64,000 nucleotides of DNA from Accumulibacter sp. GTDB lineage: Bacteria > Pseudomonadota > Gammaproteobacteria > Burkholderiales > Rhodocyclaceae. The position numbers and the translations under genes were made by a program. Positions within the stretch are counted from its first letter, which is position 1, and the number at the start of each line of letters is the position of its first letter. Positions 9,763 through 64,000 of this stretch are shown here, in pieces. The stretch spans positions 306,271-370,270 of the forward strand of contig JACKLW010000008.1 of the NCBI GenBank assembly GCA_024235715.1. The letters run 5' to 3'. Under the pieces are notes generated by a model that was not told the origin of the DNA, ran no database searches, and saw only the letters and a program-made list of their open reading frames with translations.

Positions 9763-10042
9763 GGTCGGTAAACGCTCATTTGTAAGTGATCGGGCCATCG
9801 GAAAATAGCCGGCTGGCGAGGCTTGCGATGAAATATGACAACATATGCTGTTCCGGTTATCAGCTTGCCAGAATGCTCCGAAGAACGCAAAAAATAGTGA
9901 TCAACGACAGCTTGCAGGAACCCTGGCAAGAGCACTGCCGGGAAGGCCCGGACAGCATCTCCGATCGACGCGGGTCACCGCTTCCCGACGGTCGCCCGCA
10001 CGCTGTCCGCACCAGGCGGATTGTGCCGGGCACAGGGAGAAG

Positions 10043-10444: not shown

Positions 10445-10533
10445 GGTCAGGCTCCGCAGGTGAACGACCGATGTGCAACAATAAGCATATTATAAAAAGG
10501 GTGATCATAAAGCACCAGTTAAATCGGTCTCCT

Positions 10534-12658: not shown

Positions 12659-12677
12659 GGTCGAGACCAGATCGCTC

Positions 12678-31960: not shown

Positions 31961-32350
31961 GAACATCGAAAAGCCGAAACCTGCAGGGAATTGTCAATTG
32001 TCGTCGACTCTCGTCTCCTTTCTTGGCATCACCCCGGCCCAGCGGCGCACCGCGGGCACTGCATCTCATCATGTCGCTCGACATGCTCGCATGCCTGAAG
32101 GCGAGGGCCTTGACCGCCCGATGCGCAGCCAGTCCGCCGTCTGCGCCGCGTCTCCGTTCGCTACGGCGAGATGAGACATCTGCTGGCTGATCGAAGCGGC
32201 GGGGTCCCGCTCTCGCCTGCAGCACGACATGCAGGTGAAATCCCGCATACCCCTGCATGATGCGGCCCTGAACGTCCAGTCCCAAGATCCCGAGGCAGCC
32301 AGCGCGTGCTCTCCTGGGATTCCCCGATAACAACGGAGAAGCGAGCAACA
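31961..32350 (+). other. Intergenic region between tRNA-His and rkpA
   Basis: This 390-base gap marks the change from core genes to the surface-glycan locus. I see no gene, integrase or tRNA fragment in it. GGAG 13-16 bases before the rkpA ATG is the only functional site I can point to, and no convincing promoter or terminator stands out. Confidence 0.5.
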
Positions 32351-39994: not shown

Positions 39995-39995
39995 G

Positions 39996-43652: not shown

Positions 43653-44872
43653 AACAACTCGTCCAGTGGCGAGCGCTCTGGTTCAAGAAAGCGCCGGCAG
43701 TTGTGAACTGCCAACTTGATGGCGGCAGAAGAATAGAAGCCGCCGTTGACCTGTGTGGCGTGGATCACGGTATTGCGAAAACGACGGAACAGTTCGCGCT
43801 CGGGCTTGAAGGCAAGAGTCCAGAAGTCGTCGAAGGGTCCCTGAAACGTGAGCCCGGGCAGGTTGTAGATCGGATCGCTCAAGGTCACCGTTGGACACCC
43901 CTCACCCAGCGAGACGAAACCGACGGTACTGTTGACGGTCACGACGCCCTGAGCATTCTGCAGCAGGGGGCCCAGATCGCCGCTCTCCAGGTAATCGATT
44001 CGTCCTGCCAGCCCGAAGCGCTGCTCCAGACCGGCGATTATGCGGCGGTAGTTAACCAGGCCGGCGTCGAGCGGATGGTTCTTGATCACCAGGCGCGCGT
44101 CGCCGGGTGCATGCCGAGCAAAGGACTCCATCACGAATTCCATCACGCCGTTCATGTCGTTGAAGCGACAATGGTCGCGAATCTGCGCATCGCTGTTCAG
44201 TTGCAGCGGCAGCACGTAGTAGCGCGCCCCGCCGCTGGCGAGTTGGTCAATCAGGGCCTTGTCTCTCGGTTTGCGAAAGTGAAGCATCGAAAAGCGCCCG
44301 ACGAACCCGGCGTACTCCACCGCCGCGTTGAGCGGCGCGTGGCTTCGGTAGCGCGGGAAGACGATCGGGTTGGCTGACCCGGCCAGATGGTAGGCCACAT
44401 CGTGCATGGCACGCACTCTGAAAGGCGAGTGGAACGGCTCGCCGTCGCCGTAATCCGGCAGCTTCGCTCCAACGCTGCGAAACCAGTCAGGGTCACGCGG
44501 CAGCAGCGAGTGGCCGTTGACCCCGTCACGCTCGAGCGTCACCCAGAAAGGGCGCAGATAGCCTTCCTCGAAGACATGCGTGCGGATGCCCAGCGCCGGC
44601 GCGTGATCGACGGCCGGTCGATGTACCGGGCGTCGGTCGCCAAACAATATCTGGTCGGTGATGTCGAAGCGGCGGTACCTGTCATCGAGGAAATCGCGAA
44701 GGCCGGATAGTTCGGCGCGAAAGTTCCACGCTCGCCGCAGGCCCCAATAGGCGACATCACCGGCGTTGAAGTTGACCTTGAAAACCTGATGACCATCGGC
44801 CGTAAGCTGATCGGCCAGCCGGGCAAAGAATGGCGAACAGACCCCCTGGAGGAATAGAAACGAACGTCTCAA
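43649..44872 (-). CDS. rkpJ: KpsS-type capsule polysaccharide glycosyltransferase (RkpJ-like), TTG start
   Basis: A 407-residue protein of the capsule synthesis family that includes KpsS, which adds the first Kdo to the lipid anchor of group 2 capsules. Conserved parts are RSFLFLQGVCSPFFARLADQL at the start region, KVNFNAGDVAYWG, HVFEEGYLRPFWVTLE, the KNHPLDAGLVNYRR block, and TVNSTVGFVSLGEGCP near the end. The frame is open to 45304. I chose the TTG at 44872 because AAGGGA lies nine bases upstream and relatives start just there; the ATG at 44926 is an alternative. It is the first gene of a three-gene minus-strand unit with the SDR and the LTA-synthase-like gene. Confidence 0.86.
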   Translation of the reverse strand: MRRSFLFLQGVCSPFFARLADQLTADGHQVFKVNFNAGDVAYWGLRRAWNFRAELSGLRDFLDDRYRRFDITDQILFGDRRPVHRPAVDHAPALGIRTHVFEEGYLRPFWVTLERDGVNGHSLLPRDPDWFRSVGAKLPDYGDGEPFHSPFRVRAMHDVAYHLAGSANPIVFPRYRSHAPLNAAVEYAGFVGRFSMLHFRKPRDKALIDQLASGGARYYVLPLQLNSDAQIRDHCRFNDMNGVMEFVMESFARHAPGDARLVIKNHPLDAGLVNYRRIIAGLEQRFGLAGRIDYLESGDLGPLLQNAQGVVTVNSTVGFVSLGEGCPTVTLSDPIYNLPGLTFQGPFDDFWTLAFKPERELFRRFRNTVIHATQVNGGFYSSAAIKLAVHNCRRFLEPERSPLDELL

Positions 44873-45677
44873 ACTACTGAAATCCCTTTTCTCTTCGCAT
44901 GAATTGTGATCGTCTCGCCTTGTCATTCTGGCTCTATTGCAGCGCCGGCTCGATCTGGCACGGCGGTCGTGGCGTACACGTTTCCTCCTGCCCGGGGCTC
45001 CTGCGACTGACCACGGTCGAAACCGGCAGCGCCGGCCCACCAGAGGCCTGACGGCCGTTCCCCGGAGAGCCGCGCCAGTCGGCAACGTACTCTGACTAGC
45101 CGGTGAATCTAGCACATACAGCGGCACAATGGCGCTGCAGTCCGCGAACTTCTGCAATCGGTGCGGCACGTGGATAGGCCAGAGGCAGGCCTGTGGCGTG
45201 CATTGCGCACCCGATGGTGACCGCCGACCTGAAATAGCCCGACGCGCGTGCCATACTCGTTCGCGGACATTGCCGCACGGACAAATTGTTCGCTGCGAAG
45301 GCAATCCGGGTGACAGCCACGCGACATCACGCTTATAATTTCAAGTTTGCCTGACCTGCCTTGGCTAGCATGACACCGATTCGTAGAATTCCGTGCTGCG
45401 GGACACGCGTCCCGCTCGGGCCCGCGTCCAGCGAGCCGCACCTCTGGCGCCCTACCCGCTTGGTGGATACCCGAGAACTGACGAGGAGTGCGCTACTCAA
45501 CGCAGATCCTGCTCACAAGATTGCTCGAGACAACCGCTGCCTGCAGCCGGAATCCGGCCACTCGAAATTCGTTGGTGGTCCGCGTATCGGCAGCGACCGA
45601 CGTTCGTCTGCCCGGCATCGGTTTGCTGTCTTCGCGTATCGGATCGGAAGGCCAGGACCATTGTCATCGGAAGCGCT
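44873..45677. other. Divergent control region between rkpJ and kpsE
   Basis: This 805-base gap separates the minus-strand rkp unit from the plus-strand export operon. It holds the promoter at 45310-45339, a 7-bp hairpin (GCGGGAC, ACGC, GTCCCGC) at 45398-45415 in the leader, and no convincing gene. The kpsE frame is open back to 45393, but its composition there is not protein-like. I found no JUMPstart/ops sequence (GGCGGTAG). Confidence 0.6.
45310..45339 (+). promoter_or_regulatory. Sigma-70 promoter of the capsule export operon
   Basis: GTGACA (45310-45315) and a perfect TATAAT (45334-45339) are 18 bases apart. Transcription would begin near 45346, giving a leader of about 330 bases before kpsE. 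Confidence 0.7.
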
Positions 45678-46832
45678 GTGAATAGTCCTGTGGGAAAGCT
45701 CTCAGAAAGCAACGGCAAGCCTTTGGCCAGCGGATTCGTTGCACGAATCAAGCGGATCAACACACTGTTTCTGCTGACGCTTGTCATACCTACTCTGTTG
45801 TCAGTGCTCTACTTCGGGTTTATCGCATCCGACGTTTACATCTCCGAATCACGCTTCGTGGTCCGCAGCCCGGAAAGACAAACAGCGTCCCCGCTGGGAA
45901 TGCTGTTGAAAGGCTCAGGCTTTTCCCGTGCGCAGGATGATACCTATACCGTGCAGGATTTCATGCTCTCACGCGACGCCCTGCACGCGCTTGATGAGAA
46001 GCTTGGCCTGAAACAGGCCTTTTCCAGCGACGCTGTGGACATCTTCAGCCGTTTTGCGGGACTAGACTGGGATGACAGCTTCGAAGCATTGCACCTCTAC
46101 TACCAGAACAAGGTCGAGATCCAGCTTGATGCCGCGTCGTCAATCACCACGCTCCGCGTACGGAGCTTCACCGGAGACGATTCGTTTCAGATCAACGAGT
46201 ACCTGCTCGGCATGGCGGAGACTCTTATCAACCAGCTTAACGAGCGTGGTCGGCAAGACATGATACGCTTTGCCGCGGGTGAAGTGGCAGCAGCCGAGGA
46301 TAAAGCGAAAGCGGCTGCGCTGGCTCTCTCCGCCTACCGCAATCAAACGAATGTGATAGACCCGGAACGTCAATCGACGATTCAATTGCAACAGATCGCC
46401 AAACTCCAGGACGAATTGATCGCCACGCAGGCGCAACTCTCTCAACTGCAGACTTTCGCCAAGAACAACCCGCAGATCCCATCATTGCAGCAAATGGTTA
46501 GAAATCTGCAGCAGGAAATCGCTGCGGAAACGGGCCGCGTTGCGGGCGGTAACCGCTCCTTGGCCAACAAAGCCGCCGAATACCAGCGCCTTGCGCTGGA
46601 TCGTGAGTTCGCCGACAAGCAACTTGGCAGCGCCTTCGCCTCCCTCGAGCAAGCGCGTAGCGAAGCGCAGCGCCAACAGCTCTACCTTGAGCGGATCGTT
46701 CAGCCCAGCAAACCCGACATCGCGATGGAACCTCGGCGGATTCGTGGCGTCCTGTCTACCGTCGTGATCGGCCTCATCGCGTGGGGTATTCTTTCCATGC
46801 TCATAGCTGGAGTCAAGGAACATCAGGACTGA
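45678..46832 (+). CDS. kpsE: Capsule export inner-membrane protein KpsE (PCP family)
   Basis: A 384-residue polysaccharide co-polymerase-type protein that links the KpsMT transporter to the outer-membrane channel. One membrane helix lies near the N terminus (LFLLTLVIPTLLSVLYFGFI), followed by the periplasmic SDVYISESRFVVRSPE motif shared by KpsE, BexC and CtrB. A long coiled coil covers about residues 200-350, and a second helix ends the protein (VLSTVVIGLIAWGILSMLI). The start is GTG at 45678 with GGAAG a few bases upstream; this gives almost the same length as E. coli KpsE. It is two bases before kpsM. Confidence 0.92.
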   Translation: MNSPVGKLSESNGKPLASGFVARIKRINTLFLLTLVIPTLLSVLYFGFIASDVYISESRFVVRSPERQTASPLGMLLKGSGFSRAQDDTYTVQDFMLSRDALHALDEKLGLKQAFSSDAVDIFSRFAGLDWDDSFEALHLYYQNKVEIQLDAASSITTLRVRSFTGDDSFQINEYLLGMAETLINQLNERGRQDMIRFAAGEVAAAEDKAKAAALALSAYRNQTNVIDPERQSTIQLQQIAKLQDELIATQAQLSQLQTFAKNNPQIPSLQQMVRNLQQEIAAETGRVAGGNRSLANKAAEYQRLALDREFADKQLGSAFASLEQARSEAQRQQLYLERIVQPSKPDIAMEPRRIRGVLSTVVIGLIAWGILSMLIAGVKEHQD

Positions 46833-46834
46833 CG

Positions 46835-47632
46835 ATGGCGATGGACGGCTCCACCCCTTTGCGTCGTTCTCTGGTGATTCAGTCGCGAGTCATCGCTGCC
46901 TTGCTCATGCGTGAGGTGCTTACACGCTATGGGCGTCACAACATTGGCTTTCTCTGGCTCTTCGTCGAGCCAATGATCTTCACCCTCGGCGTCACGGCAT
47001 TTTGGTCACTCGCAAAAGGCACCCACGGAAGCGGGCTGCCAATCGTCGCCTTCGCGGTCACTGGCTATTCCGCAGTCCTGCTCTGGCGCAACATGCCCAG
47101 CCGCTGCTGCAACGCAATCGAGCCAAATCTGTCGTTGATGTATCACCGGCACGTGAAAATCATCGACATTTTTGCTGCACGCCTGTTACTGGAGATTCTC
47201 GGCGCCACGACCTCCTTCGTCACACTCCTCCTTGTCTTTGGCGCAATTGGCTGGATGCACGCACCCGAGGACATCTTCAAGGTCGTGCTCGGCTGGGTGA
47301 TGCTTGCCTGGTTCGGTGCAGCCCTGGCCTTGTTGATTGGTGCCCTGTCCACCCGCTCGGAACTCGTGGAAAAAATCTGGCACCCAATGTCCTACCTGCT
47401 GTTTCCCATGTCTGGCGCAGTGTTCATGGTTGACTGGCTCCCACCAATCGCACAAAAAGCGGTACTCCTGCTACCGATGGTGCACGGTGTAGAGATACTC
47501 CGGGAAGGCTATTTTGGCTCCATTGTACGTGCCCACTATGACCTGCCCTACATGGCACTCTGTTGCCTTCTCCTGACTCTCGTTGGGCTCGCTTTGGAGC
47601 GAGCGTGCTCGCGCGAGGTAATTCCCGAATGA
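46835..47632 (+). CDS. kpsM: Capsule polysaccharide ABC transporter permease KpsM
   Basis: The membrane subunit of the ABC-2 type exporter that moves lipid-linked capsule polymer across the inner membrane. The 265-residue protein has a cytosolic start with [20 protein letters not shown], typical of KpsM/Wzm, followed by six hydrophobic helices. The conserved region [18 protein letters not shown] lies in the fifth helix and loop. ATG at 46835 follows AGGA by seven bases; an in-frame start at 46781 would lie within kpsE. It overlaps kpsT by the ATGA sequence. Confidence 0.94.
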
Positions 47633-48279
47633 TAGAGCTGGACAACGTTGTCAAGCGCTACTCCACCCGTCACGGCAGCAATACCGTCCTTGATGGCGTC
47701 ACTTTTCAGGTGAAGCCCGGCGAAAAGATGGGCATCCTCGGTCGCAATGGCGCCGGGAAATCGACCCTGATTCGCCTCATCAGCGGTGCCGAAAGGCCAA
47801 GCAGCGGCAGCATCACCCGCGGCATGAGCGTTTCCTGGCCACTGGCGTTTGGCGGCGCTTTTCAGGGTAGTCTCACCGGACTCGATAATCTTCGCTTCAT
47901 TTGCCGTGTCTACGGCGCCAGCATCGACGACAGAATCCCTTACGTACAGGAATTTTCCGAGCTTGGCAAGTACCTGCGCGAACCAGTCAAAACCTATTCA
48001 GCAGGCATGCGCGCGCGCCTTGCATTTGCAATTTCCATGGTTATCGAATTTGATTGCTTTCTGATTGATGAAATCATTGCCGTCGGCGACAGTCGCTTCC
48101 ATGAGAAATGCCGCCATGAGCTCTTCGAGAAGCGTCGGGATCGCGCGATGATAATCGTTTCGCACCACCCCGGGGAAATTCGCGCCCACTGCGAGACGAT
48201 TCTGGTACTGGATCATGGCCGCGTTGAGAAATTTGACCACATAGACGAGGCGTATGACTACTACTCCAACCAAGGCTGA
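47629..48279 (+). CDS. kpsT: Capsule polysaccharide ABC transporter ATPase KpsT
   Basis: The ATP-binding subunit that pairs with KpsM. Walker A is [10 protein letters not shown], the signature loop reads [13 protein letters not shown] in the form usual for KpsT/Wzt and not LSGGQ, Walker B is [12 protein letters not shown], and the H-loop is IIVSHH. The protein is 216 residues and has no C-terminal carbohydrate-binding domain of the Wzt kind. This points to a group 2 capsule mechanism, in which the lipid end rather than a modified sugar end is recognised. ATG at 47629 overlaps the kpsM stop. Confidence 0.95.
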
Positions 48280-49789
48280 GAAGAGCAGGATCCTCCTGGA
48301 TCTCAAGCCGGCTCTCGATGGCTACGCCGGAATACCACAGGAAACGCGGCTGCTCTTCCGTGGCCTACGTTCCATGGATAGTTGCGACGTCGAAGGCCTG
48401 ATTCAGCATGGCGCGCGAAAGCTCCGCTCTGCCGTCCCGCCAAGAGGAAAGCAACTGCCGGCTTCAAAACAAATAAACCGACTATCACGAGTCGTCGTTT
48501 CACTGTACGAGAAACCTTACAGCAGCGTCTATGACACGGTCGTTGACGCCATCGACCACTATTTCTCGCGCTCACTGCTTCGAGGCCGCGCGCTCATCGG
48601 ACTCTCCATCCATCCCGGCGTATTCGAATCGGCGCTGTTCGACGATTTCATCTGGCGCACATTCTTCAACAAGACGCTGACACCACGCGACAAGGAACTG
48701 GTCACTTCAGCACGTTACCGAGTACTCAATACGCCGAGGCGGCTGCTTCATCGGGTGGGGCTTGCCGGAATCAAGTATTCGTCGACCCCAAGATACGTAA
48801 AGCTGGACACTCGCGGATTCGATTACTTCCTTGCGCAAACACCATTCCCTGCGAGAGTTTCGCGCGGAACGCGAATGATCGTTCGCTATCACGACGCGGT
48901 TCCCATCTTGCTTCCGCATACGATCAACGACAAGGCTTTTCACCAAGCTTCGCATTTCTACGCGCTGCAACAGAACGTTAGGTCGCGCGCATGGTTTTCC
49001 TGCGTATCCGAGGCTACTCGCCACGACCTGCTGAAGATATTCCCCGAGGTGGAATCCAGATCATCGGTCATTCATAACATCGTCTCTGCCGAATACTTCG
49101 AAGACGACACGCCCAAAGGGCTGATCGTTCAAATCGTCGGCAACCGCCTGGCCAGCGTCGACGAGTTCGAGACCAACATCGGCGGCATCCGATTCGACGA
49201 CAAAGGGAGTCAAGGGCAGGGATTTGATTACCTGTTGATGGTCTCGACTCTTGAACCGCGCAAGAACCACATGCTTCTGCTGAGCGCATGGGAAAAGTTG
49301 AAATACACTTCCATGCCAGACCTGAAACTGGTTGTTGTCGGCAGCGCCGGCTGGGATAGCGCATCAATTCTGCGTGGCTTCAAACCTTGGGCGGAGCGCA
49401 GCGATCTCTTCTACCTCAACAATGTGCCGTCAGCGGAACTGCGTGTTCTTTACAAGCACGCTGCCGCGACCGTTTGTCCAAGCGTCGCAGAGGGATTTGA
49501 TTATTCTGGTGTAGAGGCCATGCGCAGTGGTGGGCTAGTGATCTCTTCCGACATTCCCGTTCATCGGGAGATATACCAGAATGCTTCCGAGTATTTTTCT
49601 CCATATTCAACCGACGATGCCTTCATGGCGATCCGTCGGGTCCTCTCGAAAGACAGCGCATCACTTCGCGAGCGCTTGCGGGCCGAAGGGCGAAAGGTAT
49701 CGGAAAACTACACACCACGAAGCATATTGCCGAAGTGGCAGGAGTTCTTTAGGAAGCAGAACGAAATTCAGAGCGGATCGTCTGCGTGA
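48254..49789 (+). CDS. GT4-family glycosyltransferase
   Basis: A 511-residue GT-B glycosyltransferase. The N-terminal domain starts [19 protein letters not shown], a motif common to group 1 transferases. The C-terminal nucleotide-sugar domain is clearer: [45 protein letters not shown], then [19 protein letters not shown], which holds the E-x7-E type motif, and [19 protein letters not shown] lies just before the ATG, which overlaps the kpsT end by 26 bases. Its place straight after the exporter genes suggests it builds the capsule chain. Donor and linkage are unknown. Confidence 0.88.
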
Positions 49790-51953: not shown

Positions 51954-51979
51954 AATGATCGCTCTCGACCGAGATCTGA

Positions 51980-53587: not shown

Positions 53588-55239
53588 AGAGAAAACAGCG
53601 TCGTGCCGCTCGCCGTGGGAAGGCGAAGGGCGTGCCCGTGACCACGGTAGCGCTCCCGAATTCCGACGAAAAGCTCTTGCCGGAACCGCCAGGCAGCTAC
53701 GACCAGTCCACGATTGAACACCTTGCACAAGCAGAGTCCGTTCCCTATGACGAAAATCTCCTGGAACGTGCGCGTACGCAATGGCAGTTCGGTGATTGGC
53801 GAAGCCTGGCACAACTTGAGCGCGACGTCCTGCAACACCACCCCGACCGTGCCAAGCTGGCCCTCCTGGCTGCCGCTGGGCACATGCAGCAAGGTGACGA
53901 TCAGGTCGCGCGGCACTACACCCGCCTGGCCCAGGACTGGGGGTGCAGCAAGCGACTGGTCAGCCAGATCCTGATCGCCGGAGTGCACAACACCCTCGGG
54001 CGTGCAGCTGCGGCAGCCGGCCAGGAACCCCGGGCACTCCGACATTTTCAAAGCGCGATCGCGACTGGCGCGCCCACGAGCGCGGTAGGGCTGCTGACCC
54101 GTGCGCGAGCCAATGAACAACTGGCACAGCTGGGCTTGCTCTCGCCGGCAGGGGTGTTACCTGACGGTGAGCCCAGCCCTGCGAAACGAGACTTCAGTCA
54201 CCCCAGCCCTTTGCGAGAACCGCCTTCCGCGATCGTGAAGTTGGTCGAGGCCTGTTTCACCGCCGATGACCTGTTGGAAGCAATTGACCGTACCGTCGAG
54301 CGGAGCAACTTCAATGGCCAGGAGTCATTCTTCTTCTTCTTGCTGATCTCTGACCGACTTCGGACCCAGAAAGACAAGTTGACGGCGCTTCACTTCCTCA
54401 ATTCCGCGCGCGAACACCTCGCTGCCGTTAGCCAGCATCTTTGCGCCGTGTTGGCCAGGAGATTCATCGACTTGGGTCGCTCGGAGGATGCCACAGACAT
54501 CCTGGTGCAGTGTTCATTGTCGCGCATGGCGGAAGGCGATCTGAGCGATGGCGACCGAAAAGCACTGGAGTCTTCCTACAAGAAGGCGCGAACCGAACGA
54601 ATGGCAATGACCGAGCATGGTCACGAAGTCTTGCTCGCGTACTTGCGTCAGCATCTGGCGCCGTTAACAGACGCTCTCAAAGGCAACAAACCTGTTCTCA
54701 TAGAAATCGGCACAACCCGAGAAAATGTCCCGGGACAGGGATCAACGCGAAAGATCGCCGAGTTCTGCAAGGAAAATGCGCTTCATTTCATTACCGTCGA
54801 CATGGACCCGCACAATACCCGTCTCGCCGAGAACATGTTTCGCGAGATGCAGACGACATTCGAGGCCGTTAACATGAAGGGTGAAGACTACTTATGCGAT
54901 TACTCCGGGAGTTTTGACATCGTCTTTCTTGATGCTTACGACTTCGACCACGGCAAGCACAGCAAATTGCGGCAAAGCCGCTACGTAAAATTCCTGGGTG
55001 CCCCGGTAGACGACCGCGAGTGTCACAGAATGCACCTTGATTGCGCCAGAGCGGTCGCCGAGAAGCTCTCTAGAAGAGGGCTGGTGTGTATCGATGACAC
55101 GTGGCTGGAAGATGGGCAATGGACTGCGAAAGGCACGCTCGCCATGCCATATCTCATCGAGAACGGATTCCGCATCCTTGATGTGCGAAACCGGGCCGCA
55201 CTGCTGGACCGTGGTTGCGAGGCCTCCGTTGAATCCTAG
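53584..55239 (+). CDS. TPR-like protein with C-terminal class I methyltransferase domain
   Basis: A 551-residue protein that starts with GTG overlapping the previous stop by four bases. The first 20 residues are strongly basic. Residues about 55-180 look like TPR or other helical repeats (ERARTQWQFGDWRSLAQLER, AAAGHMQQGDDQVARHYTRL). Residues about 365-540 form a Rossmann-type methyltransferase-like domain with KPVLIEIGTTREN, FITVDMDPHN, SFDIVFLDAYDFDHG and RGLVCIDDTWLEDGQW. The DAYDFDHG motif could bind metal, as in class I O-methyltransferases of glycan loci. No named family is recognised. Modification of a capsule sugar or lipid is the likely role by position. Confidence 0.72.
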   Translation: MKRKQRRAARRGKAKGVPVTTVALPNSDEKLLPEPPGSYDQSTIEHLAQAESVPYDENLLERARTQWQFGDWRSLAQLERDVLQHHPDRAKLALLAAAGHMQQGDDQVARHYTRLAQDWGCSKRLVSQILIAGVHNTLGRAAAAAGQEPRALRHFQSAIATGAPTSAVGLLTRARANEQLAQLGLLSPAGVLPDGEPSPAKRDFSHPSPLREPPSAIVKLVEACFTADDLLEAIDRTVERSNFNGQESFFFFLLISDRLRTQKDKLTALHFLNSAREHLAAVSQHLCAVLARRFIDLGRSEDATDILVQCSLSRMAEGDLSDGDRKALESSYKKARTERMAMTEHGHEVLLAYLRQHLAPLTDALKGNKPVLIEIGTTRENVPGQGSTRKIAEFCKENALHFITVDMDPHNTRLAENMFREMQTTFEAVNMKGEDYLCDYSGSFDIVFLDAYDFDHGKHSKLRQSRYVKFLGAPVDDRECHRMHLDCARAVAEKLSRRGLVCIDDTWLEDGQWTAKGTLAMPYLIENGFRILDVRNRAALLDRGCEASVES

Positions 55240-55921
55240 ACTGACTTCATTTCGCGGCCGGCATGACGGCCAGCGCGCCGTTCTCGTGGCCAATGGCCCG
55301 TCCTTGAACCGCATGGATCTGTCCTTTCTTCGCCACGAAACAGCTATAGGGCTGAACAAGATCCACCTCGGAATAAAAAGGTTTGGTTTCTACCCACGCT
55401 ATCTCGTCGCCGTGAACGACCGTGTCGTTGCCCAGTCTGCACCTGAAATAAGGGCCATGAACTGCGTGAAATTCATCAGCCAACGCAATGCCGACATCGT
55501 TCCCGAAAACGCCCTCACCTTCCACATCAACACCGCAAATCCCCCGGCGCGCTTCTGCAACAACATTGCTCAAGGCGTTCACGAGGGCTGGACGGTGAGC
55601 TATGCAGCAATGCAAATTGCTTTCTATCTTGGCTTCCAGGAGTTGATCATCATCGGTATGGACCATCGCTTCGAATACACGGGAAGACCCAACGACCCAT
55701 GCCGAATGATCGGTGCGGACCCAAATCACTTTAGCGCCGACTATTTTGGCGGCGGGCAAACCTGGGACAACCCCGACCTGCTCCGTTCTGAAGAATCGTA
55801 CCGTATCGCCAGATCGGAATTCGAGAAAGCGGGTCGACGCATTATCGACGCCACTGTCGACGGCGCCTGTGAGGTGTTCGAAAAAACGGACTATCGACAA
55901 TTCTTCGGGGAAACAAGATGA
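55229..55921 (+). CDS. DUF115 (MptE/Maf-like) protein, TTG start
   Basis: A 230-residue protein of the DUF115 group, which includes motility accessory factors that transfer nonulosonic acids and archaeal MptE. Motifs are RAVLVANGPSLNRMDLSFL, FYPRYLVAVNDRV, ELIIIGMDHRFEY and the C-terminal NHFSADYFGGGQTWDNPDL followed by RIARSEFEKAGRRIIDAT. I placed the start at TTG 55229, six bases after GAGG, overlapping the previous gene by 11 bases; earlier in-frame starts read through non-homologous sequence. The stop overlaps the next ATG. The last domain of the giant protein at 60482 carries the same motifs. Confidence 0.82.
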   Translation: MNPRLTSFRGRHDGQRAVLVANGPSLNRMDLSFLRHETAIGLNKIHLGIKRFGFYPRYLVAVNDRVVAQSAPEIRAMNCVKFISQRNADIVPENALTFHINTANPPARFCNNIAQGVHEGWTVSYAAMQIAFYLGFQELIIIGMDHRFEYTGRPNDPCRMIGADPNHFSADYFGGGQTWDNPDLLRSEESYRIARSEFEKAGRRIIDATVDGACEVFEKTDYRQFFGETR

Positions 55922-57585
55922 GCGGCAGCGGACGTATCCCGATTCAGATGCTGGGCCAGTCGGGCTGCCGACTGTCGTTCCCGGAAGCGACGGTCTATCT
56001 CGACCCTTACCTGTCGAACTCGGTGCAGGAACTCGACGCACCAGACCTGGAACGTCAAGTACCCATAGTCTGCTTGCCGGAAAGCGTGGTAGACGCCGAC
56101 TGGGTCCTGATTACCCATGAACACATCGATCATTGCGACCCGCACACACTTCCCAAGCTTGCCGATGCCTCGCCGCAGGCGCGCTTTGTCGGCCCCATGC
56201 CGGTGCTCGAGCGACTGCGCGAGTGGGGCCTAGACGAAAGCCGCATCATGCTTGCTTCCGAGGACTGGACGACCCTGACGCCTGGCCTGCGCCTGCGCGC
56301 CGTTCCTGCGGCCCATCCGGAGATCGTGCGCGACGCGCAAGGGCGACTGGCCTGCGTAGGCTACCTGCTCGAGTACGCACAGAAGGTCATCTATCTCGCT
56401 GGCGACACCTGTGCGAAGCAGGAAGTCATCGACGCTCTCGTCGCCAACGGCCCCATCCATACCGCCTTTCTACCCGTCAATGAACACAATTTCTTTCGGG
56501 GCCAGCGCGGCATCGTTGGCAACATGTCGGTGCGTGAGGCCTTTCATCTGGCCGTGGCGATTGGTGCCAGGCAAGTCGTCGCGGTGCATTGGGACATGTT
56601 CGCCGTAAACGCCGTCGACCCGGATGAAATCCGCCTGATCCACCGACGCATGAACCCCGGCTTTTCTCTGCTGCTCAGACCACGCACAATCAATCTGACC
56701 GATATCCGGGTGAGCATCATCCTTCGAACACTCGACGAGGCGGTTCACCTCGATGACCTGCTGCAAAGCATCGCCAGTCAGCAAACCGATGGCCTGACCC
56801 ATGAAGTTGTCCTTGTCGATTCCGGTTCGACCGATGACACCCTCAAGATCGCCCAGCGTCACCGCTGTCACATCCACCATATCACTCGCGAAGAGTTCTC
56901 GTTTGGCCGCTCGCTGAACATGGGTTGCGAGGCTGCAAGCGGCGACATCCTGGTCATCACCAGCGGCCATTGCGTGCCCAATGACGAACACTGGCTGCAG
57001 AAGCTATGTCAACCGATTGTTGCCGGCGAAGCTGACTACACCTACGGATGCCAGCTTGGCGGCCCGGACAGTCACTTCAGCGAATGCCGAATTTTCGCCA
57101 AGTATTACCCAGACCAATCACGCATCCCACAGGAAGGCTTCTTCTGCAACAACGCCAACTCGGCCCTGTTGCGTAGCGCGTGGGAGACTTATCTCTTCGA
57201 TGAAGAACTGACCGGTCTCGAGGACATGGAACTTGCCCAACGCCTGGTGCGCGGCGGCGGGAAAGTCGCCTATGTAGCCGACGCTACCGTTCTTCACTAC
57301 CATAACGAAGGATGGTGGCAGGTTCGGCGCCGCTTCGAGCGCGAGGCTATCGCGCTGCAGAAGATCATGCCGCAGGTCCACATCGGCCCACTCGATACGC
57401 TGCGCTACATCCTTGCCAGCGTACGCAAGGACTGGCTGTGTGCCTGGCGCACCAACTCCTGGCGCGCCAAACTACTGGAGATCGTTCTCTATCGCACCAA
57501 CCAGTACATTGGCTCGTACAAGGGCAACCACCAACACCGCAAGCTCTCGCACGCCGAGAAAGACAAATATTTCTACCCGCATTAA
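55918..57585 (+). CDS. Fusion of a metallo-beta-lactamase-fold hydrolase with a GT2 glycosyltransferase
   Basis: A 555-residue protein with two unlike halves in one frame. Residues 1-262 are an UlaG-like metallo-beta-lactamase fold: GQSGCRLSFPEATVYLDPYL, the metal motif HEHIDH at residues 67-72, PAAHPEI, YLAGDTCAKQE and VAVHWDMF. Residues about 264-490 are a GT-A glycosyltransferase of family 2: VSIILRTLDEAVHLDDLLQS, VVLVDSGSTDDTLKIA, FSFGRSLNMGCEAASGDILV, NANSALLRSAW and LEDMELAQRLVRGG. No stop or frameshift lies between them. The hydrolase might trim or activate the acceptor that the transferase uses. The ATG overlaps the previous stop. Confidence 0.85.
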   Translation: MSGSGRIPIQMLGQSGCRLSFPEATVYLDPYLSNSVQELDAPDLERQVPIVCLPESVVDADWVLITHEHIDHCDPHTLPKLADASPQARFVGPMPVLERLREWGLDESRIMLASEDWTTLTPGLRLRAVPAAHPEIVRDAQGRLACVGYLLEYAQKVIYLAGDTCAKQEVIDALVANGPIHTAFLPVNEHNFFRGQRGIVGNMSVREAFHLAVAIGARQVVAVHWDMFAVNAVDPDEIRLIHRRMNPGFSLLLRPRTINLTDIRVSIILRTLDEAVHLDDLLQSIASQQTDGLTHEVVLVDSGSTDDTLKIAQRHRCHIHHITREEFSFGRSLNMGCEAASGDILVITSGHCVPNDEHWLQKLCQPIVAGEADYTYGCQLGGPDSHFSECRIFAKYYPDQSRIPQEGFFCNNANSALLRSAWETYLFDEELTGLEDMELAQRLVRGGGKVAYVADATVLHYHNEGWWQVRRRFEREAIALQKIMPQVHIGPLDTLRYILASVRKDWLCAWRTNSWRAKLLEIVLYRTNQYIGSYKGNHQHRKLSHAEKDKYFYPH

Positions 57586-57608: not shown

Positions 57609-58319
57609 ATGCCCAGCGCCAAACCCCGGGTTGTCGCCCTGTTACCCATGAAAGCCAACAGCGAGCGCGTGAAAGGCAAGAACTTTCGCGACTTCTGCGG
57701 CAAGCCGCTATTCCGGTGGATCCTCGAAACCCTGTTGGCGGTCGAGGAAATTGAACAAGTGGTGATCAACACTGACGCCCGCGAGATTCTCGCCGACAAT
57801 GGACTTGTGGAGACAGACCGAATCGTCATCCGCGACCGCAAGCCGGAAATCTGCGGTGACTTGGTGAGCATGAATCTCGTTCTTGCCGACGACGTGGCCA
57901 ACGTGGACGCCGACGTCTACCTCATGACCCACACCACCAATCCCTTGATGAGTGCGGAGACCGTTCGCGGCGCGCTCAAGGCCTTCCTGGCGTCCCGCGC
58001 CAAGGAGTCGGCCGATTCGCTGTTTACCGTCGACAAGGTTCAAACCCGTTTTTACCGTAGCGATTGCAGCGCGGTCAACCACGATCCTGACAACCTCATC
58101 CGTACGCAGGATCTCGAACCCTGGTTCGAAGAGAACTCCAACCTCTACATCTTCACTCGCGACAGTTTCCGCAAGACCAACGCGCGTATCGGCAAGCAGC
58201 CGATGATGTACGAGGGGCCACAGTTCGAATCAATCGATATCGACGACCCGCAGGACTGGGATTTCGCAGTGGTCGCCGCCCGTTTTCTGCTGGAGCAGCG
58301 CGAGGAAGCGAAGTCATGA
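57609..58319 (+). CDS. NeuA-like acylneuraminate cytidylyltransferase
   Basis: A 236-residue nucleotidyltransferase that should activate an acidic sugar as its CMP derivative. The nucleotide-binding start reads VVALLPMKANSERVKGKNFR, the family motif with Arg and Lys. GKPLFRWILETLL, VVINTDAREI, DADVYLMTHTTNPLMSAETV and the metal-binding ESIDIDDPQDWDFA near the end all fit NeuA/PtmB. GGAAG lies seven bases before the ATG. No neuB or neuC is in the window, so the substrate could be sialic, legionaminic or another ulosonic acid. It overlaps the next gene by ATGA. Confidence 0.86.
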   Translation: MPSAKPRVVALLPMKANSERVKGKNFRDFCGKPLFRWILETLLAVEEIEQVVINTDAREILADNGLVETDRIVIRDRKPEICGDLVSMNLVLADDVANVDADVYLMTHTTNPLMSAETVRGALKAFLASRAKESADSLFTVDKVQTRFYRSDCSAVNHDPDNLIRTQDLEPWFEENSNLYIFTRDSFRKTNARIGKQPMMYEGPQFESIDIDDPQDWDFAVVAARFLLEQREEAKS

Positions 58320-59248
58320 AGGTTCTTGTCACCTGCCCACCAATGCTTGGAATGATTGACGACTTTCGGCCCATCTTCGCAGATTTTGGCGTCGAAGTAA
58401 CTGCGCCCACTGTCGTGCAGACCCTTTCGGTCGATGAACTCAAGAAGATCGTACCGCAGCACGATGGCTGGATCATTGGCGACGACCCGGCCACGCGCGC
58501 GGTATTCGCCGCCGGCAAGGCCGGTCGCCTCAAGGCCGCCGTAAAATGGGGCATTGGCGTCGACAACGTCGATTTCGCAGCCTGCGCGGACCTCGGCATC
58601 CCGATCATCAACACGCCGAACATGTTTGGCGGCGAAGTAGCGGATATCGCCGTCGGCTATGTAATCGCCCTCGCGCGCGAGACCTTCGCCATCGACCGCA
58701 GCGTCAGGCAGGGCCAATGGCCGAAGCCCCGCGGCATCTCGCTTTCCGGCAAGACAGTCGCCCTTGTCGGCTTCGGCGACATCGGAAAAAGTGCCGCCCG
58801 ACGCCTGTTGGCGGCCGACATGCGAATCATCGCTTACGACCCGGTGGCCTCGAACACCCGCGAACTCGCCGCGGTGGAGCGGGCGGACTGGCCGCTGCGA
58901 CTTGAGGAGGCCCACTTCATCGTCATCACCTGCGCGCTAACGCCCAGCAGCCGCCGCATGGTCAACGAGGAGACCCTCTCGCGTGCCAAGGATGGCGTGC
59001 GCATCGTCAACGTCGGGCGCGGCCCGATCATCGACGAAACCGCGCTCGAGGCAGCGCTCCAGTCCGGCAAGGTGCACTCGGCAGCGCTGGATGTATTCGA
59101 AGTCGAACCTCTGCCCATGAACTCCTATCTCCGCACCAATCCGCACTGTGTCTTTGGCTCGCACAATGCCTCGAACACCGCCGACGCCGTAGCGCGTACC
59201 AGCGAGATCGCAATCGGCAAGCTGATGGACTTCCTCAACTCGAAATGA
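58316..59248 (+). CDS. D-2-hydroxyacid dehydrogenase (PGDH-like)
   Basis: A 310-residue NAD-dependent dehydrogenase of the SerA type. The Rossmann motif is LVGFGDIGKSAARRL. The catalytic residues lie in NVGRGPIIDETAL (Arg), DVFEVEPLPMNSYL (Glu) and GSHNASNT (His). The N-terminal catalytic domain contains VKWGIGVDNVDFAAC and INTPNMFGGEVADIAVG. There is no C-terminal ACT domain, so it is not a regulated serine-pathway SerA. Its position between a cytidylyltransferase and an SDR suggests it makes or alters an intermediate of the acidic sugar. The substrate is unknown. Confidence 0.87.
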   Translation: MKVLVTCPPMLGMIDDFRPIFADFGVEVTAPTVVQTLSVDELKKIVPQHDGWIIGDDPATRAVFAAGKAGRLKAAVKWGIGVDNVDFAACADLGIPIINTPNMFGGEVADIAVGYVIALARETFAIDRSVRQGQWPKPRGISLSGKTVALVGFGDIGKSAARRLLAADMRIIAYDPVASNTRELAAVERADWPLRLEEAHFIVITCALTPSSRRMVNEETLSRAKDGVRIVNVGRGPIIDETALEAALQSGKVHSAALDVFEVEPLPMNSYLRTNPHCVFGSHNASNTADAVARTSEIAIGKLMDFLNSK

Positions 59249-59442
59249 GCAACTGGACAAGAGGAGACGCCAGCAGCACAGCCTTCTCCACCATGATCGA
59301 GCGATCGAAGCAAGCAACAGCGGGTGGGCATGGACTGATCGTTCGCCACTTTCCCGCTCCGCGGCATGTCTCGCACCCGCACCTGCGCCCAACTTGCCGA
59401 ATTTTCGCGCTCTTTCCATGGGAGTTCAGGAGGCGCCGATGA
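59245..59442 (+). CDS. Possible small coupled protein (65 residues)
   Basis: This frame fills the gap between the dehydrogenase and the SDR exactly: its ATG overlaps the previous stop (ATGA) and its stop overlaps the next start (ATGA). The product is basic and has no recognisable motif, signal peptide or membrane helix. Its last codons contain the Shine-Dalgarno AGGAGG of the next gene. The double overlap supports translation, but the codon choice is not clearly that of a real gene and it could be a leftover of a decayed gene. Confidence 0.35.
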   Translation: MSNWTRGDASSTAFSTMIERSKQATAGGHGLIVRHFPAPRHVSHPHLRPTCRIFALFPWEFRRRR

Positions 59443-60203
59443 CCACTTCCGCAAGCTTCGCGCCGCCGACCGCTGTTGTCACCGGTGCAGCCGGAGGGAT
59501 CGGCGAAGCACTGGTTCTTGCGTTTCATCAAGCAGGCTATGAAGTCATCGCCAGCGACGTTGTCGCCAGGCCATGTGCTCTTCCGTGCACCGACTACATC
59601 CAGGCGGATCTCGCCCGCGTCGTTGCCGATGAAGCCTATGCCGACACCATCTTCCGCGCAATCCGTGGCCGTCTCGATGGGCGTGGCCTCGACGCCCTGA
59701 TCAACAACGCGGCCATCCAGATCCTCGGCGGTGCGGAATCGCTCACGCGCGTCGACTGGCATCGCACCCTCGATGTGAACCTCCTCGCCCCCTTCCTCTT
59801 CGCACAGGCCCTCCTCGCCCAGTTGGAAGCCGCACGGGGCTGCGTCCTCAATATCAGCAGCATTCACGCACGGCTGACCAAGAAGAACTTTGTCGCCTAC
59901 GCTACGAGCAAGGCCGCCTTGAGCGGTATGACCCGCGCGCTGGCCGTTGACCTCGGCCCACGCGTTCGCGTAAACGCAATTGAACCCGCGGCGATCGCAA
60001 CCAAGATGCTCCAGGAAGGATTTTCTGGGAAACCCACCTCGTATCGGCAACTGCAGGATTGCCACCCGCTGCAGAGAATTGGCCAAGCTACGGAACTCGC
60101 CGAACTGGCACTTGCCATCGCCGGGGGTGGCATGGACTTCCTCCATGGCGCCTGTGTGGGCCTTGACGGCGGTATTGGCGCCCGCCTCTTTGATCCCGCC
60201 TGA
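59439..60203 (+). CDS. Short-chain dehydrogenase/reductase (PtmA-like position)
   Basis: A 254-residue SDR. The cofactor motif is TGAAGGIG, then NNAA in LDALINNAAIQILGG, the catalytic Ser in NISSIHARL, and the pair in YATSKAAL. The C terminus GACVGLDGGIGARLF is the usual SDR end. AGGAGG lies five bases before the ATG at 59439. It is the third gene after the NeuA-like cytidylyltransferase. In Campylobacter a similar pair (ptmA SDR and ptmB cytidylyltransferase) works in legionaminic acid synthesis; that parallel is inference. The gene is followed by a 278-base gap in which I see nothing. Confidence 0.87.
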   Translation: MTTSASFAPPTAVVTGAAGGIGEALVLAFHQAGYEVIASDVVARPCALPCTDYIQADLARVVADEAYADTIFRAIRGRLDGRGLDALINNAAIQILGGAESLTRVDWHRTLDVNLLAPFLFAQALLAQLEAARGCVLNISSIHARLTKKNFVAYATSKAALSGMTRALAVDLGPRVRVNAIEPAAIATKMLQEGFSGKPTSYRQLQDCHPLQRIGQATELAELALAIAGGGMDFLHGACVGLDGGIGARLFDPA

Positions 60204-60481: not shown

Positions 60482-63400
60482 ATGAGAAACATTCTGGTTT
60501 TTACCGACAGCAGAGGCCAGCACAAGCCCTCCGGAAGCAATCACCCAATCTTCGCTGAGCGTTTAAGGGATGAATTGCCCGACACTCATGTCGACATCGT
60601 TCTTTGTCCGATGAAGTGGACGACCACTTTGGATTTTCTGCAGTATGCAGAAAATAATGACCTGAGCAGGTACGAATGGATAATCCTGTATACCGGCATA
60701 GTGGAATGGTCTCCGCGTCCTGCGAGCAGTGCCTATAACGACTTGTATGCGAATACCAACGAGCAGAATCTTGACGCATTGCATCTCAACACGCGAGACT
60801 ACTCCAAGAAGATCGTAAACAACAAAAAGATATTTTTTGACCGGTTGTTTGGTGAAACCGAGATTCAAACATATCTCACCACTCCTTTTGATGTCGAGTT
60901 TCTTGGCGAACCCACCATTAACATGTACAGCCTGGAGATGGCAAGGAGCAAAATATGTCCAAGACTTTCGCAATTCCACAACCTTATTTTTGTCAACTCC
61001 AACAGGATACTGAGCGACTGGGCCGGAGATCACAAGAAGGGCCGCCCCAGGAACATGGCGATAACTCACCAGTATTCCGACGTTGTCTCGCAGAGCTTCC
61101 CCCCCGAGCGCTTGGTCGATATCAGCACCTGGTCGGAAAGCGAAATAAAGCACTACACTTGCGACAACATGCATTTGACAAAAGAAGGTAGCGACTACAT
61201 CTTCTCGCAAATACTTGCAAAAATAAACTCCACCCAGACCAACACATCGACGATGAATACGACGCCCGTACAGCACCGAAACGACTCAATATTGGTAATT
61301 GGCAATGGCCCATCAACCAGAAAATTAATTGACTATGGATTAAGCAATCTCCCTGACGGACTAGATACTTTCGGCATGGGCGCCGCATACCGGTATTTTG
61401 AAGAAGTTGATTGGTGGCCAACGTATTATGCATGGTGCGACATGAAGGTCGTCCATTCACATTTTTCCGAGTTCAAACGAATCGTTGAGAGCCCGAACAT
61501 TGCCACCACGACGAGAAAGTTTTTCTTCTCCCTTCCGGTTTCAAAAAGCGACACTTTCGAACAGATTCCTCACGGATCGACCGGTGACTTCTGCTTTAGA
61601 AAAGCTGCCGAACTCGGCTACAAGAACATCTATATCATTGGCGTCGAAGGAAACTATGTCGAGGAAATTTCCGAGTCGAGACCTCTCGACGATGATGAAT
61701 ACAAAAACCTTGGATTTGACCAACTGTTCCAGCATTTTGAGAACATCGTACCCGACAAGAAGGAAGCCTATCGAATATTCCGAGATAACCTCCGAATAAT
61801 AAAGGAAACCCCTACCGAAAACCCAAACTATTTTTTTGACAGCTACCAGAGAAAGGGTGATGTTTTTTCCCTGCCACGATCGCAGACGCACCGGAATGCG
61901 TGGAAGAAGAGCGTAACGACTACAAAGCAGGATGGCGTCCACTTTTTCAATCTGAGCGAGAGCTCACAAATCGAGAACATCCCGAAGCTGCCATGGCCTG
62001 TATTTCTCAATCGGATAAATAACCGGCCGGATAACGCTTTTTCACCGTATGGCAGACCAATTGACATGCCAAGAGTCCTTACTCGCGAGAAGCGGGAAGC
62101 GCTGCTAGCCATGACCAAGCACAGTGCCTCCGACAAACTTGCCTGCCTGATAATAGGCGTTCGCCTCAAGGAGCACGAACTGGAGAGGATCCGCAATCTG
62201 CAGTTTCTCCTGGGATGGATCGACAAGTACTACGGCGACCTGTTTGACGTGTTGCTTGTCGAGCAGGACGAGCAACCACGGGCCCTGCAACTCCTGCCTG
62301 GCCTCAAGAACTATGTTCGGCACGAATTTCTCTATAACCCGAGAAGCTTCAATCGCGGCTGGGGCTATAACGTTGCCGCACGCCGGTTTACTGATGCCCA
62401 GGTCATGGCGCTGATGGACACAGACGTTCTCACGGGTGCGAACTTTGCAAACGAGATCGTAAGCTGCCACCTGCAATACAAGGCGATCTCGCCATACATG
62501 AACGTGTACTTTGCCGACGAAGCCGAGACCGACGCTATTCTCGCTCAAGGCGGGCTGTCACAGCTGGTTCGGAAGGACGGCGTAAAAAAACCCACTACGA
62601 TAACAGGGGGAATCCTGATAGCGAGAAGAGCGGTCTTTCTCGAAGTGGCTGGATTCGAGCAGTACATCGAGTACGCCGGCGAAGACCGCGCTCTGGACGT
62701 AACCTTGCTGAACCATTGTGCGAAATCCGAGCTGAGAATGGCACCATTCACTTACGTTCATTTGCATCATCCGACCAGTGACGAACCGCGCCCGCGAGCG
62801 AAAGAGCTTTTCAAACATCTCAACGACAACTTCGGCTGCAAGGTTAACCCGACCATAACGCCCGAAGAAGACATCCACAAGAACTGCAAGCATGTCAGCA
62901 AGGAAGTTTCCCTGAAGCATTTGATGCGCCGAAAGAAATGCTACGGCGATCCGCACATGTATAAAAATAACCCGCCTGAAGCCATAAATGGCGTTCCACC
63001 TGGCGAGACTCGCGAGGGCTTGGACTCCATAATATTTCCGCCGGCGTTCAAGGGACTTGACAAATACGAGGCCAACGAGACATACAAAGCCCCCGAGCCA
63101 GACACAAAACGGCTTGCCGGACTCTACAACGCTTTCAAGGGCGAGAGATGCTTCATCGTTGGAAATGGACCTTCCTTGAACCAGCACAACCTTGACTTGC
63201 TTGACGGCGAATATGTCTTCGCTGTGAATTCAATATACTACAAGACCAAAGCGACAGGCTTCCGGCCAACGTTTTTCGTGGTTGAAGACAGCTCGGTGAT
63301 GACGGAGAACATCGAAGAAATAAAGATCTACCAAGCACCTTACAAGTTCTTTCCAACAAACTACAAGAGTATTCACCCGGAAGCAGACAATGTCTTCTTT

Positions 63401-64000
63401 TTCAGGATGAACAGGGGCTTCTACGAGAAGTCGAGTCCGAACTACTGCATTCCAAGGTTTTCGACTGACGCATCCAAGCAGTTGTATTGCGGCCAGTCGG
63501 TCACCTATATCAATCTGCAACTTGCGCACTTCATGGGTTTCGTGGAGGTCTACTTGATCGGCATGGACTTCAGCTACCAGATACCCGATTCCCACCAACG
63601 AACTGGCGATTTGATTCTCTCGACGACTGACGACCCGAATCATTTCCATAAGGACTATTTTGGCAAGGGGAAAACCTGGAAAGATCCCAAACTCGAACGA
63701 GTGGCCCTAAATTATACACAGGCAAAGCTTGCTTACGAGTCAACGGGGCGTCGTATCTACAATGCAACCATAGGCGGCCACCTCGATATCTTTGACAGAG
63801 TCGATTACAACACGCTTTTAGGCGGAACCCCTGCCCCCTTGCCACGGGACGGCGTTTCGTTTTCCGAAGCGAACTCGCTCTACAGGCAAGGCCGTTACAA
63901 CGAGGCGCTAGCGGCCTACATTTCTCTGGCCCGTCGGAATAGCGCGTTTACCTTGTACAAGAGAAACGCACTTCATGCTTACCAACTTGCCTCTTCCTCT
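60482..64000 (+). CDS. Giant multidomain glycan protein: SGNH-like, Maf-like, GT2, DUF115 and TPR (cut by window end)
   Basis: One frame stays open for 1173 codons to the window end. Residues 1-260 resemble an SGNH hydrolase or acyl-esterase (FTDSRG at 8-13, D-x-x-H at 228-231). Residues about 268-400 look Maf-like (VIGNGPS at 272-278, then STGDFCFRKAAELGYKNI and IIGVEGNY). About 400-545 is unassigned. Residues about 550-790 are a GT-A glycosyltransferase with the DTD motif at 646-648 and GEDRALD at 733-739. Residues about 885-1120 are DUF115 (GNGPSLN at 894-900, LIGMDFSY, HKDYFGKGKTW). From about 1125 a TPR begins (EANSLYRQGRYNEALAAY). Base composition is visibly more AT-rich than upstream, suggesting transfer. 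AGG lies eight bases before the ATG. Function in glycan decoration is inferred. Confidence 0.83.
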   Translation, partial: MRNILVFTDSRGQHKPSGSNHPIFAERLRDELPDTHVDIVLCPMKWTTTLDFLQYAENNDLSRYEWIILYTGIVEWSPRPASSAYNDLYANTNEQNLDALHLNTRDYSKKIVNNKKIFFDRLFGETEIQTYLTTPFDVEFLGEPTINMYSLEMARSKICPRLSQFHNLIFVNSNRILSDWAGDHKKGRPRNMAITHQYSDVVSQSFPPERLVDISTWSESEIKHYTCDNMHLTKEGSDYIFSQILAKINSTQTNTSTMNTTPVQHRNDSILVIGNGPSTRKLIDYGLSNLPDGLDTFGMGAAYRYFEEVDWWPTYYAWCDMKVVHSHFSEFKRIVESPNIATTTRKFFFSLPVSKSDTFEQIPHGSTGDFCFRKAAELGYKNIYIIGVEGNYVEEISESRPLDDDEYKNLGFDQLFQHFENIVPDKKEAYRIFRDNLRIIKETPTENPNYFFDSYQRKGDVFSLPRSQTHRNAWKKSVTTTKQDGVHFFNLSESSQIENIPKLPWPVFLNRINNRPDNAFSPYGRPIDMPRVLTREKREALLAMTKHSASDKLACLIIGVRLKEHELERIRNLQFLLGWIDKYYGDLFDVLLVEQDEQPRALQLLPGLKNYVRHEFLYNPRSFNRGWGYNVAARRFTDAQVMALMDTDVLTGANFANEIVSCHLQYKAISPYMNVYFADEAETDAILAQGGLSQLVRKDGVKKPTTITGGILIARRAVFLEVAGFEQYIEYAGEDRALDVTLLNHCAKSELRMAPFTYVHLHHPTSDEPRPRAKELFKHLNDNFGCKVNPTITPEEDIHKNCKHVSKEVSLKHLMRRKKCYGDPHMYKNNPPEAINGVPPGETREGLDSIIFPPAFKGLDKYEANETYKAPEPDTKRLAGLYNAFKGERCFIVGNGPSLNQHNLDLLDGEYVFAVNSIYYKTKATGFRPTFFVVEDSSVMTENIEEIKIYQAPYKFFPTNYKSIHPEADNVFFFRMNRGFYEKSSPNYCIPRFSTDASKQLYCGQSVTYINLQLAHFMGFVEVYLIGMDFSYQIPDSHQRTGDLILSTTDDPNHFHKDYFGKGKTWKDPKLERVALNYTQAKLAYESTGRRIYNATIGGHLDIFDRVDYNTLLGGTPAPLPRDGVSFSEANSLYRQGRYNEALAAYISLARRNSAFTLYKRNALHAYQLASSS

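Follow-up and report, generated by a model that had tools for sequence, protein, structure and literature searches.

Multi-transferase, single-chain capsule enzymes determine which structure the surface polymers of bacteria have. The chondroitin synthase K4CP and the heparosan synthase PmHS2, for example, use two GT-A modules with uridine diphosphate (UDP)-sugars. NeuA proteins with an SGNH domain are sialic acid O-acetylesterases. We know of no GT42 enzyme that is fused to SGNH and GT-A modules. The stretch of Accumulibacter sp. DNA analysed here (64,000 nt reaching the end of contig C8, GenBank JACKLW010000008.1; hereafter the window) closes with an open reading frame for a giant protein in which an SGNH-fold domain, a first DUF115-like module (MafA), a GT-A glycosyltransferase (GT) of the GT2 type and a second DUF115 module (MafB) follow one another (Table 1). 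Within its mosaic family of proteins this is a rare combination, and it is linked to a cassette whose cytidylyltransferase scores below the cut-offs for KdsB and PseF. We consider it fairly probable that this multi-transferase capsule enzyme works in the cytoplasm as a multi-enzyme glycan assembly protein specific to the capsule, and that it is the strain-specific part of a group-2-type capsule locus; it is possibly a polymerase.

The giant protein has the GT-A fold in common with K4CP, PmHS2 and beta-4-GalT7, the DTD and ED motifs being present in the family described here, and, as in K4CP and PmHS2, there are several GTs per chain. Unlike in those synthases, however, its GT-A module is flanked by two modules of the type that uses cytidine monophosphate (CMP)-sugars. 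With NeuA-SGNH it shares the link between an SGNH esterase-like domain and a CMP-sugar pathway, although there the domain is fused to the synthetase and here to transferases. The GT42 sialyltransferases Cst-II and Cst-I (PDB 1ro7, 2p2v) are matched, by profile, by both DUF115-like modules, one of which departs from the other in its His motif. This kinship of PF01973 with Cst-II has already been published for Maf (PMC11339370, available part). The K15 cluster of Escherichia coli offers another likeness: according to the part of the article available (PMC7387560), it specifies a group 2 capsule that is partly O-acetylated, and includes an O-acetylation enzyme and a Maf/Cst-II-like protein, ORF4, which is a predicted alpha-transferase of 3-deoxy-D-manno-oct-2-ulosonic acid (Kdo). 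In that same part, however, these functions lie in separate proteins, the sugar is plain Kdo, and no 2-hydroxyacid dehydrogenase is described.

Translation of the frame from the ATG at 60482 through base 64000 met no stop (1173 codons), in agreement with the single uninterrupted frame of at least that length described in the initial annotation. The other five frames of this stretch hold 17 to 55 stops each, and the longest open run left after base-shuffling it was 212 codons (200 shuffles). Since contig C8 ends inside the frame (position 370270; the genome is in 25 contigs and 90.5% complete), the true stop cannot be read. The joins between modules are independently supported because the GT2-DUF115 core also lies within one frame in 19 other proteins. 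By contrast, the window alone was seen to have SGNH running straight into the first DUF115-like domain, and this exact module order was found in no other retrieved sequence; moreover, an in-frame ATG lies at residue 258 (61253), near the junction, and the contig breaks 2.7 kb further on. An assembly error, or chance read-through of neighbouring genes, could in principle have produced such a fusion. We nevertheless regard this as very improbable: the frame crosses the junction without a stop, 15 other proteins place SGNH directly ahead of the same GT2-DUF115 core, and a protein of another genome of the genus (G016, see below) carries SGNH and the first DUF115-like domain within a single closed frame. 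As a candidate start, the internal ATG was rejected, there being neither a visible ribosome-binding site ahead of it nor a consistent Met across 15 relatives.

The four modules named in the initial annotation were recovered in the order given there, with an esterase-like domain first and two sialyltransferase-fold-like (CMP-sugar type) domains around the GT2; the start of a tetratricopeptide repeat (TPR) region that it also listed fared worse. The N-terminal module has the fold of the SGNH hydrolase superfamily, and S10 (block I), D228 and H231 (block V), invariant in 19 of 19 alignment rows, would form its catalytic triad. Among the relatives scanned, only L022 matched an SGNH-type Pfam model, below cut-off (E 6.1e-5). 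Comparison of the SGNH profile with the PDB by sequence returned just two rows, both salivary proteins (E 0.019 and 0.095), which were taken as chance. MafA matched PF01973 at 20.5 bits (E 7.8e-4), under the Pfam cut-off of 34.6 bits, but a profile built from its relatives reached Cst-II at E 3.4e-9, which strengthens the original call of a Maf-like domain. For MafB the match to this MptE-like family was above cut-off (81.3 bits, residues 878-1033; whole-protein E 1.7e-27), as expected for the DUF115 domain annotated near the C-terminus, and its profile reached Cst-II at E 2.3e-7. At the level of profiles, the likeness of both modules to GT42 runs from GNGPS through the Gly-x-Asp region, over about 140-160 positions. 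The central module displays the DxD and ED motifs and the GT-A fold, and a structure search with the whole 868-residue three-module model listed mostly GT-A matches. Beyond MafB, TPR matches were weak (E 0.028 and 0.046, both under cut-off). A long TPR array is also doubted because an alignment by eye pairs the tail with the short, closed one of a Nitrococcus relative (L020), which has 76 residues if the count starts 60 past the HKDYFG motif; the tail of L023 (89 residues) is similar as well. Other relatives carry additional modules past the core (coiled coil, methyltransferase or sulfotransferase), and a longer tail is therefore possible.

Maf proteins are the best-known DUF115 members, and the giant protein might accordingly be read as a Maf-type protein glycosyltransferase that decorates flagellin or another surface protein. 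MafB belongs to the same Pfam family as the Maf flagellin glycosyltransferase (PDB 5mu5), which its profile reaches at E 0.0069 and which the three-module model matches at rank 45 (E 4.0e-6). With the MafB profile, however, GT42 rows outrank Maf by over four orders of magnitude in E, and the NCBIfam model FlagModPseD gave 20.2 bits against a cut-off of 670. The partner domains differ as well, since the three Maf domains described in the available part of PMC11339370 include neither GT-A nor SGNH. Finally, the setting is one of capsule export: the presence of KpsE-, KpsM-, KpsT- and KpsC/S-like genes in the locus makes polysaccharide assembly likelier than the protein glycosylation that the initial annotation had offered as an option. 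A Maf-type role is therefore judged improbable.

A scan of one genome per species (84,980 species) with six short peptide patterns yielded 24 loci, of which 16 encode the fused GT2-second-DUF115 core; three plasmid records bring the relatives to 19. Their carriers, which span several phyla, are Alphaproteobacteria, Nitrococcus, and metagenome-assembled genomes (MAGs) of Thiotrichaceae, Desulfobulbus and Opitutales, some of the loci being on plasmids. Across these relatives, identity to the window is 66-79% for the second DUF115 module and 39-59% for the GT2, suggesting a stronger constraint on the former. What precedes the core varies: SGNH directly (12 relatives), SGNH with a module of about 600 residues ahead of it (three), the first DUF115-like module without SGNH (three), or the ∼600-residue module alone (one). 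The latter module, 29-57% identical among the four proteins carrying it, contains Pfam GT domains in L023 and L024 and a weak one in L022 (three proteins scanned). In none of the 19 relatives do SGNH and the first DUF115-like module both lie ahead of the core; among the sequences retrieved, the full four-module order occurs only in the window. The initial annotation knew of no described protein with this order, and among the open-licence PMC matches listed no title or abstract opening dealt with this domain order or with the cassette. The protein does not stand alone, however: it is a shuffled member of a mosaic family with a recurring core and exchangeable front and back modules.

The proteins at L016 (7995-14006) and L017 (8001-13892), with 2003 and 1963 amino acids, contain the second DUF115 module twice each, and that of L016, the one scanned, has an additional second GT2 and a C-terminal Methyltransf_24 domain. 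In three Acidimicrobiales MAGs (L029-L031) the second DUF115 module, at 57-58% identity, is C-terminal in proteins of 927-929 amino acids; the one scanned (L029) carries a GT2 domain. In a tree of the core, the window groups with three first-module proteins and four SGNH-type ones (support 97/96), but a single origin of the first-module proteins (three relatives plus the window) was recovered in only 38% of 200 bootstrap trees, and in the SGNH tree the window row fell in no supported set. In a joint alignment of SGNH and first DUF115-like rows, GNGPS was misaligned for the distant rows, and this alignment was discarded.

Whole-genome protein searches matched some part of the giant protein in 4 of 61 relatives, 14 of 369 genomes of the class and 9 of 398 of the phylum (own genome included in each case), and in 12 of 385 genomes of the class of G439. 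Other than its own genome and G439 (locus L025), none of these genomes gave a match to the two core modules within a single frame. Within the genus, the only match among 27 other genomes was G016, where a cassette syntenic with that of the window (L120; 66-76% identity) is followed, on the opposite strand, by a gene for a protein of 1222 amino acids (9036-12704). This protein reads SGNH, GT2-like, first DUF115-like module and Galactosyl_T, and thereby has the shared parts in another order. The lack of a match to any part of the giant protein in the remaining 26 genomes fits a late arrival. So does its foreign composition: the giant frame has a G+C content of 0.496, compared with 0.546-0.625 in 12 other measured capsule-locus genes and 0.648 in the upstream polyketide synthase gene. 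Both the AT-richer composition and the later arrival had been suggested initially.

The genes upstream include KpsE, KpsM, KpsT and KpsC/S homologues, and the locus is read from this gene content as a group-2-type (ABC-exported) capsule locus; PF05159 scored above cut-off both in the window and on contig C15. Between the export genes and the giant frame lies a sugar cassette, for which neighbours were counted in stretches fetched around the 19 fused-core relatives (E at most 1e-20). Its linkage to the core is conserved for the cytidylyltransferase and the D-2-hydroxyacid dehydrogenase, the latter annotated as a phosphoglycerate dehydrogenase in one plasmid relative. The whole row of cassette neighbours is present at the Nitrococcus locus. 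The metallo-beta-lactamase-fold (MBL) and GT2 halves that are fused in the window each have a gene of their own in Nitrococcus L020 and in G036 (L007); in G016 they are again fused. Because the cytidylyltransferase and the dehydrogenase are conserved near the relatives, the giant protein is probably not the self-contained machine first envisaged.

Table 1. Features of the giant frame, the sugar cassette and the capsule locus (window coordinates; ABC, ATP-binding cassette; SDR, short-chain dehydrogenase/reductase).
Feature	Position	Strand	Remarks
Giant multidomain frame	60482..64000	+	1173 codons, ATG at 60482, open at contig end
SGNH-fold domain	60482..61231	+	residues about 1-250; S10, D228, H231 invariant, 19 aligned rows
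First DUF115-like, GT42-like domain (MafA)	61268..61996	+	residues about 263-505; GNGPS, NPNYF..YQ motifs
GT-A glycosyltransferase (GT2/GT7-like)	62072..62896	+	residues about 531-805; DTD and ED motifs
Second DUF115/MptE-like, GT42-like domain (MafB)	63095..63820	+	residues about 872-1113; GNGPS, DPNHFHKDYF motifs
C-terminal tail	63821..64000	+	lined up by eye; like short tails of Nitrococcus and L023 relatives
SDR oxidoreductase	59394..60203	+	adjoins giant gene; near 4/19 relatives
D-2-hydroxyacid dehydrogenase	58316..59248	+	near 14/19 relatives
CMP-sugar-type cytidylyltransferase (PF02348)	57609..58319	+	near 16/19 relatives, 40-75% identity
MBL-fold + GT2 fusion	55918..57585	+	GT2 half near 15/19 relatives, MBL half near 1/19
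Small DUF115 protein	55037..55921	+	weak WaaZ Kdo transferase match, E 6.2e-6, 25.7 bits vs cut-off 200
GT4 glycosyltransferase of capsule locus	48254..49789	+	
ABC ATPase, polysaccharide-export type, KpsT-like	47563..48279	+	best NCBIfam rows teichoic acid/galactan exporters, all below cut-off
ABC-2 permease, KpsM-like	46781..47632	+	E 1.8e-30, 106.7 bits vs cut-off 300
BexC/CtrB/KpsE-family export protein	45393..46832	+	E 1.4e-114, 383 bits vs cut-off 437.5; homology from residue 121
KpsC/KpsS-like Capsule_synth protein	43649..45304	-	PF05159 E 1.9e-78, match at 43733-44650

The donor is likely to be a CMP-activated acidic sugar. The initial annotation spoke of two putative nonulosonate transferases; the kinship with CMP-sugar-type folds stands, but nonulosonates in the NeuB sense are doubtful. 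The NeuB synthase (PF03102) gave no match in the 90.5% complete genome, which makes a classical sialic-type donor unlikely here, and it was detected in 4 of 15 carrier genomes searched (one of the four weakly; the genome of L021 was left out). A new sugar is plausible and Kdo is possible. If the donor were plain Kdo, the giant protein would be a K15-like Kdo-capsule enzyme and the extra cytidylyltransferase a KpsU-like duplicate. DUF115/Maf enzymes can accept Kdo, the Maf enzyme of Clostridium botulinum transferring both N-acetylneuraminic acid (Neu5Ac) and Kdo (PMC11339370, available part), and the small DUF115 neighbour matches WaaZ weakly. The genome holds two CTP_transf_3 genes, the cassette enzyme and a true KdsB (287.6 bits, cut-off 155.2), so CMP-Kdo should be available. 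The cassette enzyme, however, reached at best 30.5 bits with KdsB models (cut-off 193) and 75.7 with PseF (cut-off 205.7), and on plasmid pAge77 a Kdo set of its own (kdsA plus genes of the KdsB and KpsF types) exists in addition to the cassette. In addition, Kdo synthesis includes no 2-hydroxyacid dehydrogenase step, so the linked dehydrogenase would have no place in it. Plain Kdo is thus held to be an unlikely donor, though a less remote idea than a Maf-type role.

For the favoured reading, that of a capsule-specific assembly protein, the following scheme can be proposed. The cassette cytidylyltransferase would make a CMP-activated acidic sugar, whose precursor the dehydrogenase and the SDR would prepare. 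Residues from this sugar would be added by the two sialyltransferase-fold-like modules, and one from an ordinary nucleotide sugar by the GT-A module. The N-terminal SGNH module would attach an O-acyl group, or take one off, either at the donor stage or on the chain as it grows. Working one after another, the modules might build a short repeat or a polymer, which the Kps-like exporter would carry out. We infer this chemistry and product, including the cytoplasmic location, the catalysis by each module, the donors and acceptors, the order of addition and the choice of polymer over oligosaccharide or the reverse, from the folds, the linkage and the type of locus.

Several observations weigh against this scheme. 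In the capsule locus, the Kps-like exporter genes other than KpsC/S stay under the NCBIfam (equivalog) cut-offs. The cassette reveals no more than a portion of a precursor pathway, the SDR and the MBL half recur near few relatives (four and one of 19, respectively), and the cytidylyltransferase was not found at three of the 19, two of which lie on short contig ends (6 and 11 kb). As for the giant protein itself, its C-terminus is missing and the structure model of the three modules had a predicted template modelling score (pTM) of 0.45. The His of the DxNHF motif of MafB (H200), a candidate counterpart of the catalytic His of Cst-II, is conserved in at least 90% of 38 alignment rows but is a Tyr in MafA, which may therefore use another base or be inactive. 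Block III of canonical SGNH enzymes has the signature GxND, which is absent from the SGNH alignment, the corresponding stretch of the window being TGIVEWSPR (by eye); for this reason the module is termed SGNH-fold rather than a canonical SGNH esterase.

Homologues of these parts also occur on plasmids and on viral contigs. In three Rhodobacterales plasmids (pAge77, L052; p4SUD7, L053; Gemmobacter fulvus p5, L054) the module lies beside GDP-fucose-type genes, and pAge77 also carries dTDP-rhamnose and ABC transporter genes. Relatives of the first DUF115-like module were found at 30 IMG/VR loci (31 proteins, 27 distinct sequences), at 27 of which the fetched stretch includes a cytidylyltransferase homologue (E at most 1e-4). 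Three of the 30 repeat contigs from the SGNH search; the viral contigs are L051, L055-L057 and L059-L087. The three viral contigs found via SGNH also have the first module, a cytidylyltransferase and an aldolase homologue; on one contig, the first module and SGNH are separated by a gene for 327 amino acids. This co-occurrence independently ties SGNH, the first module and the cytidylyltransferase together. In L051, the one contig checked, phage late sigma factor and SbcC/D-like genes are present, the aldolase is of the HpcH/HpaI family (Pfam), and the first-module protein matches a PHROG named alpha-2,3-sialyltransferase (E 2.6e-10). Among 50,697 named-phage records, this L051 protein had no match. 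The window protein itself matched two uncultured records only, in the GT2 part. Genes of the HpcH/HpaI aldolase family exist elsewhere in the Accumulibacter genome, not near the cassette.

We tentatively propose, as an idea with rather less than an even chance of being right, that the cassette makes a CMP-activated acidic sugar needing neither NeuB nor KdsA, by means of the dehydrogenase (sometimes with the SDR) in bacteria and of the HpcH/HpaI aldolase in phages and some bacteria. The giant protein would then be a capsule polymerase that unites three transferases and an acyl editor in one chain. It would have arisen as its modules, also in circulation as individual genes among uncultured phages, were freely shuffled. 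If the donor were indeed a new CMP-sugar, a function could be assigned to proteins now labelled '6-hydroxymethylpterin diphosphokinase MptE-like', plasmid and phage kin included, and a new sugar acid would come with a system ready for assays.

Two other regions of the window deserve mention. Within the capsule locus, positions 49821-53587 encode two proteins rich in repeats, many of which are near-identical and of the 'RDEQAKLATDRQ' type; the second protein matches SMC-type coiled-coil models. Positions 32306-41348 encode a reducing polyketide synthase of 2562 amino acids (ketosynthase, acyltransferase, dehydratase, enoylreductase-type, ketoreductase and acyl carrier protein domains), followed by an aminotransferase.

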